37,972 bases of DNA from a virus. Positions 1 to 37,972 of the stretch are shown here, one piece after another. The notes beneath the pieces were generated by a model. The model was not told the origin of the DNA, searched no databases, and worked only from the letters and a program-made list of their open reading frames with translations. Numbering within the stretch: the first letter of the stretch is position 1; the number at the start of each line of letters is the position of its first letter. The stretch is taken from the IMG/VR virus record IMGVR_UViG_3300025424_000004, positions 1 through 37,972 of that record. One strand, written 5' to 3'. A program made the position numbers and the translations under genes.

Positions 1-99
1 TTCCACGCCTCTCTCAAGGACGCACACCAGGCGATTACGGAGCACCGCCAGGCAACCTGCCCCCACGCCTACGAGGTGCTCGACTTCGACGGCAACCCC
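1..99. repeat. Terminal direct repeat, left copy (contig overlap)
   Basis: Bases 1-99 are identical to bases 37874-37972. The repeat lies inside a gene that reads uninterrupted across the join (37844 to the end, continuing at 1 to 201). This is the usual mark of a circular contig. An odd length of 99 fits a k-mer overlap left by an assembler better than a biological terminal repeat, so the unique genome is about 37,873 bp. Confidence 0.95.
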
Positions 100-29506: not shown

Positions 29507-29698
29507 AAAAAGCGCAACATCAGCATCCGCAAGGGCCGTGACATCACCCTGTTCGCAGGCGTCGGGACGTTCCTGGCAATCGAACTCTACGGCTTCGGCT
29601 ACTACTGGAACGAAGCACAGATGTACCTCTGGGCTATTGGTGGCGGCCTGCTCGCCTCTGTCGTGACGGCTGGCTACCTCGCAGTCGTCTCAGAATGA
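29504..29698 (+). CDS. Small two-span membrane protein (64 aa)
   Basis: First gene behind the consensus promoter and the shared leader, so probably highly expressed. After a basic start (MKKRNISIRKGR) come two hydrophobic segments (ITLFAGVGTFLAIELYGFGY and YLWAIGGGLLASVVTAGYLA). A small membrane protein made early could alter the host envelope or exclude other phages. No family is recognised. Its stop overlaps the first WhiB start. Confidence 0.7.
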   Translation: MKKRNISIRKGRDITLFAGVGTFLAIELYGFGYYWNEAQMYLWAIGGGLLASVVTAGYLAVVSE

Positions 29699-30057
29699 AC
29701 TGCTACGGAAAGACCGACATCTTCTTCACCAAAAAGAAGTTCCGAGAGGCTAAGGAACTCTGCCGGAGTTGCCCGAAACTACAAGAGTGCCGAGACTGGG
29801 GGCTCCGCTACGAGGAGTTCGGCGTCTGGGGTGGGCTAGATCCAGGCCAGCGCAAGCGAGTGCGCAGGGAGCAAGGCATCAAGTTCAGCGCTGTGCTCCC
29901 TAGTGCTAAGGCCGGCCACGCTAACTGCGGCACGAACGCCGGATACCACGCCCTGCTCAAAGCCAGCGAGAACCGCCAAGTGTGGTGCTCGAAGTGCCGA
30001 GAGGCGCACAGGGTCTACGTCGCCGAGCGCAACTGGCTACGAGCTCAGAGGCGATGA
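29695..30057 (+). CDS. whiB: WhiB-like iron-sulfur regulator with extra Cys/His module (1)
   Basis: The 120-residue protein has the four Cys of a WhiB 4Fe-4S site (C3, C23, C26, C32), the turn GVWGG (43-47) and a basic segment QRKRVRREQ. WhiB proteins act with the primary sigma factor and are limited to Actinobacteria and their phages. Beyond residue 70 is an additional module with H75, C78 (HANCGTNAGYHALL) and C98, C101, H105 (CSKCREAH), likely another metal site. The spacing C3-x19-C23 is short. It overlaps the membrane gene upstream and its paralogue downstream. Confidence 0.88.
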   Translation: MNCYGKTDIFFTKKKFREAKELCRSCPKLQECRDWGLRYEEFGVWGGLDPGQRKRVRREQGIKFSAVLPSAKAGHANCGTNAGYHALLKASENRQVWCSKCREAHRVYVAERNWLRAQRR

Positions 30058-30500
30058 TGTTCGACAACCCACCCTGTCAGGGCAAGACCGACCTGTTCTA
30101 TCCGCCACTAGTGGAGTTCGACAGCCCCCACCACGTCTCGGAACTGAGAGAGCGCAAAGAGGCCGCCGAAGCCGAGGCTAAGGCTATCTGCCAGACCTGC
30201 CCGTACGTCGAGCCCTGCCTCGAGGCCGCACTGGACGGAGAGACCTACGGCATCTGGGGCGGCAAGAGCCCTGCCGAACGTCGAGAGATCCGCATCGAGC
30301 GCAAACTCATCATCCGTCGAGGGCCGTACGGCAACAACCACAATAACTGCGGAACCGAGGCCGGATACCAGGCACTCGCCAAAGAGGTGCAGGCCCGTGG
30401 AGGCTCCGCAGCCGGTCATCGGGTCAAGTGTAAGGCCTGCCGTCGGGCGCACAGTGCTCGGGTCATAGAACTGCGAGAGAAGAGGAAGCAGGAACAATGA
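30054..30500 (+). CDS. whiB: WhiB-like iron-sulfur regulator with extra Cys/His module (2)
   Basis: The 148-residue paralogue starts at the ATG overlapping the first WhiB stop. A second ATG follows directly, so Met2 is possible. Iron-sulfur Cys are C8, C46, C49 and C55, GIWGG is at 66-70, and a basic RREIRIERK segment follows. The same extra module is present with H96, C99 (HNNCGTEAGYQALA) and C126, C129, H133 (CKACRRAH). The two genes look like a duplication that has diverged, with different loop lengths between Cys residues. Possible dimerisation or competition for the host sigma factor is inference. Confidence 0.88.
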   Translation: MMFDNPPCQGKTDLFYPPLVEFDSPHHVSELRERKEAAEAEAKAICQTCPYVEPCLEAALDGETYGIWGGKSPAERREIRIERKLIIRRGPYGNNHNNCGTEAGYQALAKEVQARGGSAAGHRVKCKACRRAHSARVIELREKRKQEQ

Positions 30501-30946
30501 GCCTCGAAGCACAAGCCCTTGTCTGGGGGCTCGAGATACCCAGCGCTCACAAGTTCGTGGCTATGGCGCTGGCCGACCACGCCCACAAGGACGGCACGGG
30601 AGCACGGCCTAGTCAGTCCACCCTGGCAACCAAAGTCTCGATGAGCTCGAGGCACGTCAGGCGCATCCTGAGCGACCTCGTCGAGTGGAAAATCATCGAG
30701 GTCGAGCGACCCTCGGGACAGCACCGAGCGACTACTTACCGCTTCGTAAGTATGACCCCAGACCGGACACCCGTGTCCACCCTGAAAAAATCCAGACCGG
30801 ACATTTCAGCATCCAGACCGGACATATGCGACACTCAGACCGGACACCCGTGTCCTACTAACCATAAAGAACCGTTATTAGAACCCCTGCCGAACTTGCA
30901 CGAACTAGCGGAGCAAGCCCGACGTATTCTTAGAGGAGGAAGATGA
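30497..30946 (+). CDS. HTH replication-initiator-like protein
   Basis: The 149-residue protein has a winged helix-turn-helix in its first half (SLEAQALVWGLEIPSAHKFV, then SQSTLATKVSMSSRHVRRIL). The second half is low complexity with repeated RPDI units (SRPDISASRPDICDTQTG), encoded by DNA that carries four iteron-like repeats and an AT-rich tail. This arrangement resembles lambda O-type initiators that bind repeats inside their own gene. It overlaps the upstream WhiB stop and the HNH gene downstream. It probably opens the origin and recruits host enzymes, since no phage helicase is seen. Confidence 0.65.
   Translation: MSLEAQALVWGLEIPSAHKFVAMALADHAHKDGTGARPSQSTLATKVSMSSRHVRRILSDLVEWKIIEVERPSGQHRATTYRFVSMTPDRTPVSTLKKSRPDISASRPDICDTQTGHPCPTNHKEPLLEPLPNLHELAEQARRILRGGR
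30759..30890 (+). other. Putative replication origin: iterons and AT-rich segment
   Basis: CAGACCGGACA occurs four times (30759-30769, 30793-30803, 30814-30824, 30836-30846). In copies one and four the repeat runs into GGACAC-CC-GTGTCC (30765-30778 and 30842-30855), a perfect palindrome. An AT-rich stretch follows (about 30856-30886, including ACCATAAAGAACCGTTATTA) that could melt. Its place inside the HTH initiator gene is like lambda ori in gene O. The repeats also encode repeated RPDI, so protein-level repetition is the alternative. Confidence 0.65.
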
Positions 30947-31506
30947 AAGTACGACCAAAGCACCTACAGCCCACCCCGAGGAGTGAGCAGGTCAAGAAGC
31001 GAGCCCAGAGCGCTATGCGCCACGTCTCTGTCTGCTCGTACTGCCACCGCCGAGGCGAGCCGTTCGTAGTCAAGGGCGACCCTGACGGCAACTTCTGGTG
31101 TATGGATCACATCGTTCCTCTGCACAAGTGCGGCGAGGACGCTCTTCACAACCTCACGAAGTCCTGCTGGGCCTGCAACGAGAAGAAAGGCGCATCGCTC
31201 TGGCAGCGCCGACTCGAGGGCAAGGAAATCGAGACCGCTAACAACAAGTGCCTGGTGTGGGACATCGACACGCTGCGAGCCGCTAACCCTCGCTTCGCCA
31301 AATACCTGAGCTGGGTGACCGCAGAAAAGGCCAAGCGCAAAAAGTCACGGCAGCCACGTCAATCCCAAGCCAAGCCCAAAAAACCCAAGTGGGTCACTAT
31401 CGAACAAATAACAACCGAGCCGAAAGCAAAGCCCAAAAATAAGATGCGGCACTTCAACGACCCAAGGCCGAGCGTGTTCAAGGGGCAAATCAAACTTGTG
31501 AAGTAG
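30943..31506 (+). CDS. HNH endonuclease with long basic tail
   Basis: The 187-residue protein has zinc Cys C31, C34 (CSYC), the MDHIVPLH metal motif (D55, H56), HNLTKSCWACNEKKG with N70, and C75, C78. The last 70 residues are Lys/Arg/Pro-rich with PKKPK- and KAKPKNK-type runs and probably bind DNA. HNH nucleases in phages act as homing, packaging or recombination enzymes. Being between the initiator and nuclease genes, a replication or recombination role is plausible. GAGGAGGAAG precedes the ATG. Confidence 0.82.
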   Translation: MKVRPKHLQPTPRSEQVKKRAQSAMRHVSVCSYCHRRGEPFVVKGDPDGNFWCMDHIVPLHKCGEDALHNLTKSCWACNEKKGASLWQRRLEGKEIETANNKCLVWDIDTLRAANPRFAKYLSWVTAEKAKRKKSRQPRQSQAKPKKPKWVTIEQITTEPKAKPKNKMRHFNDPRPSVFKGQIKLVK

Positions 31507-31515
31507 TGTTAGGAC

Positions 31516-31908
31516 GTGAAACTCGCCACCGAGGACAACCCACAGAACCCTGACGACTTCCTCGCCTATCTGTGCCACCTCTGGCGTCACGACATCTCGG
31601 TCAATAACAACCCCGTGAAAGCGCAGCTCACAATCATCGGATCCAAAGACCCAATGGTCATCGAGTGGACATCGAAGCACTACTCCCAAGCCCAGCACTG
31701 GCTACCTGGTCGCTGTGACGGCTGTACGGCGTGGGTCATCGAGAGAACCGAGTCCTACTGGGGAGCCCACCCCCACTTCTGCTTCAAGTGCTTAGCGTGG
31801 ACTATGGACTACTTCGAGCGCAACTCCAAGTGGCCCGAGGGCAACTGGTGGCCGCACGAAACGTTCGCCCTCGATGAGCTGCCCGAGGAGGGCGATGAAG
31901 AGGTCTAG
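31516..31908 (+). CDS. Trp/His-rich zinc-binding protein (130 aa)
   Basis: The GTG start follows TTAGGA, nine bases after the HNH gene. The product has CDGC (about residues 68-71) and CFKC (about 89-92) with nearby His, suggesting a zinc ribbon, and an unusual number of Trp (WLPGRCDGCTAWVIE, EGNWWPHETF). The C-terminus is acidic. No family is recognised. It overlaps the second HNH gene by 14 bases. Confidence 0.65.
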   Translation: MKLATEDNPQNPDDFLAYLCHLWRHDISVNNNPVKAQLTIIGSKDPMVIEWTSKHYSQAQHWLPGRCDGCTAWVIERTESYWGAHPHFCFKCLAWTMDYFERNSKWPEGNWWPHETFALDELPEEGDEEV

Positions 31909-37847: not shown

Positions 37848-37972
37848 TTGAACTACGAGCCGACACCGAGGGCTTCCACGCCTCTCTCAAGGACGCACAC
37901 CAGGCGATTACGGAGCACCGCCAGGCAACCTGCCCCCACGCCTACGAGGTGCTCGACTTCGACGGCAACCCC
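37844..37972 (+). CDS. Zinc-ribbon-like small protein, 5' part (continues at 1)
   Basis: The GTG at 37844 overlaps the membrane-gene stop (GTGA), and the reading frame continues across the contig end to the stop at 199-201. The full product is about 76 residues, opening MIELRADTEGFHASLKD with the first Cys of a zinc site in CPHAYE. Together with the repeat it shows that the contig closes into a circle. Confidence 0.75.
   Translation, partial: MIELRADTEGFHASLKDAHQAITEHRQATCPHAYEVLDFDGNP
37874..37972. repeat. Terminal direct repeat, right copy (contig overlap)
   Basis: Exact copy of bases 1-99. It falls within the 5' part of the gene starting at 37844, and the reading frame is kept when the ends are joined. 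This supports a circular map. It does not by itself show whether the virion DNA is permuted or has cohesive ends. Confidence 0.95.

Follow-up and report, generated by a model that had tools for sequence, protein, structure and literature searches.

Most phages have no mapped origin of replication. Origins located within the gene of their own initiator are already known from lambda O, pSK41 and RepC. In lambda (gene O, ori-lambda) and in the O genes of Stx phages, four (or six) phased iterons lie centrally in the initiator gene and occupy several reading frames (PMC7466680), with imperfect inverted repeats and an adjacent AT-rich tract. The origin of pSK41, with its four Rep boxes, falls within the linker-encoding portion of rep. 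In pPR9, a plasmid that replicates autonomously by means of its rep region, rep has an HTH_36 N-terminal domain, and only this domain and the origin set its replication region apart from that of pSK41 (PMC5703833). The origin of the repABC initiator RepC also lies inside the initiator gene, and is AT-rich and sensitive to silent mutations (PMC3155836). For RepA-type phage origins, Wetzel et al. could not find repeats (PMC7157519). The locus considered here lies in a virus from IMG/VR (record IMGVR_UViG_3300025424_000004), the whole analysed stretch of which, 37,972 nucleotides in length, is referred to as the window. On the evidence of sequence comparison, positions 30759-30882 very probably represent a replication origin inside the gene of its own initiator, similar to those of lambda O and pSK41. 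An earlier note on this DNA had suggested a probable origin within an initiator gene, and the presence of iterons in multiple frames, selection at the DNA level and the pattern seen across the protein family all favour that suggestion. The layout is the same as in the known origins; new are the different protein family, the reduced initiator and an iteron core common to distant phages. No description of the present iteron family, or of a link between recognition helix and iteron, was found in open-access full texts.

The predicted initiator is a protein of 149 amino acids encoded on the plus strand at 30497..30946, and the start and stop of its gene overlap both neighbouring genes, leaving no intergenic space. 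It belongs to HTH_36 (PF13730) with an E-value of 1.3e-8 and a score of 34.9 bits against a curated cut-off of 25, and it matches a dozen PHROGs (among them 1032, 270, 391 and 678), mostly annotated as 'replication initiation' and several at an E-value of 1e-8. The AlphaFold2 model, in agreement with fold matches, predicts a confident winged-helix DNA-binding domain at residues 1-84 (30497..30748, plus strand; pLDDT about 88-98 over residues 1-80), the recognition helix of which is RHVRR with Arg55-Arg56, followed by a low-confidence linker exactly at the iterons and by a short C-terminal helix at residues 134-146 (30896..30934, plus strand). The earlier note had placed the repeats in the low-complexity part of an HTH gene, and the linker at the iterons is predicted to be disordered. 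Beyond the last iteron core, the window protein and its close relatives have about 35 residues and the more distant L079 has 12, and longer related initiators mostly have 60-320 further residues after the iterons; the C-terminal replication domain of these longer HTH_36 initiators is absent from the window protein and from L001, L002, L008 and L079.

The genome is effectively complete at about 37.9 kb (circularly permuted or circularised), as indicated by a 99-bp direct terminal repeat at 1-99 and 37874-37972. Between 27.5 and 37.4 kb, the proteins recognised were an SSB, a RecE-like exonuclease, two WhiB-like proteins, HNH and VRR nucleases and a DNA methylase, and none of the replication-side ORFs checked there matched a helicase, primase, polymerase or helicase loader, consistent with the previous reading, in which no polymerase or helicase had been recognised. 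Tandem WhiB-like genes at 29695-30057 and 30057-30500 stand directly upstream of the initiator gene and are kept in relatives. Downstream, the initiator gene is followed by an HNH endonuclease gene and then by a gene for a protein without assigned function. The HNH gene (30943-31506) stands directly behind the initiator gene in the window only, and looks like a recent insertion beside the putative origin; a homologue of the next gene, 31516-31908, follows the initiator gene within about 40 bp in three relatives. Searches gave no support for 31516-31908 as a possible helicase loader. GC skew, proposed earlier as a check, was negative almost throughout with no switch and was uninformative, six terminator-like stems were found against 2.7 expected, and a Megablast search of the phage collection with 25-38 kb returned no match.

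Within the initiator gene, CAGACCGGACA occurs in four exact copies on the plus strand, starting at 30759, 30793, 30814 and 30836 with steps of 34, 21 and 22 bp, which confirms the four iterons at 21-34 base steps described previously. The outer copies, iteron 1 (30759..30778, codon phase 1) and iteron 4 (30836..30855, codon phase 0), read CAGACCGGACA-CCCGTGTCC, and the inner copies, iteron 2 (30793..30803) and iteron 3 (30814..30824), are both in codon phase 2, with iteron 3 matching ACCGGACA-N5-GNC. Both outer iterons extend to CAGACCGGACACCCGTGTCC, in which perfect 6-bp dyad arms (GGACAC/GTGTCC) flank a CC centre; the two palindromes GGACACCCGTGTCC at 30765 and 30842, earlier called perfect, are therefore perfect in their arms but not in the 2-nt CC centre, which is not self-complementary. 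The inner two iterons pair weakly (4/11 pairs); the iteron dyads of lambda, for comparison, range from 4/9 to 7/8 pairs. Single-strand DNA folding of the iteron block gave a z of -2.3, mainly from the outer dyads pairing with each other. A scan of the whole phage genome found no fifth exact copy of CAGACCGGACA on either strand, and no other 11-mer is present four times within 300 bp anywhere in the window.

Iteron 4 adjoins the AT-rich stretch TACTAACCATAAAGAACCGTTATTAGA (30856..30882, plus strand), a candidate duplex-unwinding element with an AT content of 70% against 42% for the whole initiator gene, and the most AT-rich 40-bp segment near the iterons ranks within the top 1% genome-wide. The AT-rich stretch that had been noted behind the iterons is present, but is short at 27 bp. 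DNA identity over 30857-30889 is 82-94% in relatives. Two copies of GAACC, 12 bp apart at 30869 and 30881 (30869..30885, plus strand), form another short repeat, which recurs in related candidate origins; at least two copies are found just downstream of the iterons, mostly 12 bp apart, in 20/33 related genes among the matches listed. GAACC is mostly confined to one frame in these 33 genes, again among the matches listed, and so may have a protein cause (an EP repeat) there. Its copies in Arthrobacter phages follow one another at 11, 11 and 12-13 bp and span several frames, and with the same spacings GAACCGTC is found across frames behind the iterons in the initiator genes of the Arthrobacter phages L245, L246 and L258, as a candidate unwinding-element repeat.

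Four phased, multi-frame iterons followed by AT-rich DNA resemble the lambda ori in gene O, as the earlier note had proposed, and two sequence features of lambda-O-type origins, several iterons inside the initiator coding sequence and an adjoining AT-rich tract, are present in the window. Lambda O itself, taken as a positive control, carries the same signature, with iteron frames of 0, 2, 2 and 1 and a pass at 2/200 in the synonymous-shuffle test, and its N-terminal DNA-binding half has PHROGs 678 and 345 in common with the window protein. The window differs from lambda in its iteron sequence, its shorter AT-rich tract and its lack of a P gene and of a lambda-type C-terminal domain: the window protein matches PF13730 and not PF04492 (Phage_rep_O), lambda O matches PF04492 and not PF13730, and the PHROG matches of the window protein cover the N-terminal part only, with no C-terminal domain for contact with the helicase loader P and no P gene next door. 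pPR9 offers the closest functional parallel for an initiator of the HTH_36 type, and both pSK41 and pPR9 resemble the window in having four binding sites in the central, linker-encoding part of rep. The pSK41 initiator contains a RepA_N domain and a DnaG-binding C-terminal domain, whereas the window protein has neither, with no Pfam match to RepA_N. The RepC origin that was studied, unlike the window, has no iterons (PMC3155836); the window protein gave no match to RP-C at an E-value of 0.01, and its relative L008 matches RP-C just below the cut-off. The HTH_36 initiators of PHROGs 1032, 270 and 391 (for example the Arthrobacter phage 'replication initiation protein' and those of Mycobacterium abscessus prophages) have the same winged helix and the same location of multi-frame iterons. 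The M. abscessus prophage prophiGD08-2 also has the same ACCGGACA core. Most of these initiators, unlike that of the window, are 200-400 amino acids long with a C-terminal domain, and Arthrobacter, Sphingopyxis and other phages have iterons that differ from those of the window (ACGGGGTG, ACCCCCGC).

A possible alternative explanation is that the HTH protein binds within its own gene as an operator, as a roadblock or for autorepression in an early operon, with no role in replication. Fold searches returned winged helices of many functions, including MarR/CRP regulators, and so do not decide between a regulator and an initiator; 4pql (N-terminal domain of a DNA binding protein) was among the matches without standing out. 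This resemblance of the winged-helix DNA binder to regulators, the short, regulator-like gene and the location of the sites within an operon would be in keeping with an operator. However, all the sites lie in the middle of the coding region and none is near a recognised promoter, with no sigma-70-like promoter detected within 29600-31600 by a scan confined to promoters of that type. The lack of a fifth iteron in the genome, the annotation of the family as replication initiators through PHROG homology and the precedents of lambda and pSK41/pPR9, which are origins, also argue against an operator, which appears improbable.

An origin embedded in the initiator gene is consistent with the repeats found in initiators chosen without regard to the motif. 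All 14 annotated phage initiators picked by protein similarity only, several of them from related Arthrobacter phages, contain an 8-mer that occurs three or more times and in at least two frames, and 13/14 exceed the synonymous-shuffle null at p <= 0.05, mostly with other iterons than those of the window: ACGGGGTG in the Arthrobacter phages and one Pseudomonas phage, ACCCCCGC/ACCCCCGA in Sphingopyxis, Stenotrophomonas and Microcystis, and ACCGGACA in prophiGD08-2. Among motif-blind HTH genes from prophages and genomes, multi-frame repeats were significant in 22/67 compared with 4/66 neighbouring genes, a count that excludes three genes whose genomes had been located by means of the motif. The other 45/67 motif-blind HTH_36 genes had no significant multi-frame repeats, and the pattern is therefore not universal.

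A scan of IMG/VR by DNA motif alone (three copies of ACCGGACA with gaps of 8-30) returned at least 119 stretches, against 43 for a reversed-motif control whose matches were mostly low-complexity; many of the motif matches were single-frame tandem repeats of low complexity and were excluded. Among the matches listed, 35/63 ORFs with multi-frame matches were HTH_36 genes, compared with 2/73 for single-frame and reversed-motif control matches. In 34 HTH genes, chosen partly by an HTH signature with a pattern including R-x-V-R/Q-R, the 134 sites among the matches listed were distributed 48/46/40 over the three frames, had a common flank outside the search motif (ACCGGACA-N5-GNC) and in 46 cases formed full TGTCC dyads with a spacer of 3, 4 or 6. 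Iteron steps, again among the matches listed, were 20-25 bp in 63% and 31-37 bp in 23%, and the bases 5' of the core differed among phages and were the same within one phage. A dyad-based scan of 84,980 genomes, in which HTH calls rest on a rough pattern, found matching iterons in HTH-like genes of phyla including Actinomycetota, Pseudomonadota, Nitrospirae and Armatimonadetes, as well as non-HTH matches. Related arrangements were also observed elsewhere. In the Proteobacteria MAG L243, ACCGGACAGGGGTGTC(CTGA) is repeated seven times in tandem, in 20-bp copies that lie in no long ORF and may form a free-standing iteron array. Genomes of many Demequina species (L182, L183, L191, L211, L212, L217, L219 and L236) contain a ACCGGACA...TGTCC dyad pair 36 bp apart that matches both strands and is apparently outside an HTH_36 initiator gene, and in the Clostridia-type MAGs L216 and L225 ACCGGACA/TGTCC dyads occur in pairs, 22 bp apart, where the DNA is AT-rich and apparently does not code for protein.

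The iteron core was associated with the recognition helix, in that Arg-Arg at window positions 55-56 occurred in 24/28 motif-chosen genes (among the matches listed; chosen by DNA motif only with no residue filter, and dereplicated) compared with 6/66 motif-blind initiators (p = 6e-13). GGAC-type iterons were present in three of the six motif-blind initiators with Arg-Arg (L290, L256 and L248). Helices of the form V-Q-x occurred mostly with C/G-run iterons (ACCCCCGC, ACGGGGTG; L247, L249, L251, L245, L246 and L258), with L250 (V-R-Y) as an exception to this grouping, and the pairing suggests further classes of the same code. As the short-domain tree contains only two supported independent pairs, both agreeing or tied, common descent may be part of the association between helix and iteron. 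With or without common descent, the association fits binding sites for the initiator in its own gene, and many distant phages seem to use the same embedded repeat paired with the same two residues of the binding protein.

A role as a partition or centromere-like site, a packaging site or another protein-binding array that lies in the gene by chance has some basis, given that phased dyad arrays also serve as parS-type sites and that extrachromosomal prophages with parABS are known (PMC7157519). Across phages, however, the array is linked to HTH initiator genes and goes with their recognition helix, and no ParA/ParB family match was found among the replication-side ORFs checked, making such a role highly unlikely.

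Within the candidate origin, conservation was found to follow the DNA more closely than the encoded peptide. The four iterons translate as DRTPV, RPDIS, RPDIC and QTGHP in codon phases 1, 2, 2 and 0, and as a consequence of this spread over three reading frames RPDI is encoded by just two of the four copies; the RPDI protein repeat mentioned in the earlier note does not hold for the array as a whole. In synonymous-codon shuffles that kept the protein, a 10-mer occurred four times in 0/20,000 and three times in 68. In three relatives from IMG/VR (L001, L002 and L008; 58-69% identity), the same codon was used at residues identical to the window in 49-53% of cases in the HTH part and in 92, 97 and 86% in the iteron and AT block, a difference with Fisher p-values of 1.3e-5, 2.4e-6 and 2.6e-3. 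Iteron 1 reads DRTPV in the window and L001 and RPDTM in L002 and L008, with the DNA core intact despite the frame shift. The earlier note had named relatives that keep the protein repeat and lose the DNA repeat as a finding that would speak against an origin, and the opposite was seen, with the DNA and codon choice conserved and the peptide not. Recent block exchange between relatives could add to the identity of the iteron block, but the frame shift of iteron 1 and the wider pattern go beyond what such exchange explains. A low-complexity protein repeat (an RPDI linker) with incidental DNA similarity, as might be proposed for a region that encodes a disordered linker with RPDI in two of its four copies, is refuted to near certainty by the three frames, by the frame change with DNA kept in relatives and by the failure of any synonymous shuffle to reach four copies.

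If 30759-30882 is an origin, we infer that initiator binding, unwinding, helicase loading and origin activity would follow the lambda-type course of iteron binding, bending and AT opening (PMC7466680, PMC5043065), with pSK41 Rep as a further model (PMC5703833). The HTH_36 winged helix (residues 1-84) would bind the four iterons, with the RHVRR helix reading ACCGGACA, and the spacing of the copies, about two or three helical turns apart, would align the bound initiators on one face of the DNA, which they would wrap or bend. Such wrapping or bending would strain the 27 AT-rich base pairs next to the iterons, with their GAACC repeats, and thereby open them, and the opened stretch would take the host replicative helicase, after which the host replisome would copy the genome. 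Because the iteron DNA encodes a disordered linker, the repeats would be free to occupy any reading frame. The main gap in this interpretation is the missing C-terminal domain: as the protein has no domain comparable to those by which lambda O and pSK41 Rep recruit a helicase loader or primase, the helicase would have to be recruited by the short C-terminal helix, by an unrecognised phage partner or by host DnaA.

Frame-independent repeats in an initiator gene offer a simple sequence test for an origin, and the predictions that follow from the link between helix and iteron lend themselves to a test in which two arginines are exchanged. A further question raised by the short initiator is how a protein reduced almost to its DNA-binding domain recruits the host helicase. 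A more general possibility, which we consider to have about an even chance of being correct, is an HTH_36 recognition code in which R-x-V-R-R corresponds to ACCGGACA-N5-GNC across hosts, and V-Q-x and V-R-E/T/A correspond to other cores. Such a code would span phages of Actinomycetota, Pseudomonadota and other hosts, and the HTH-plus-iteron block would be a swappable specificity cassette within coding DNA, so that the origins and compatibility groups of many phages would be readable from sequence. The window would then be the smallest form of this cassette, with an initiator that is little more than a DNA-binding domain and that would have to rely on a previously undescribed route for loading the host helicase.
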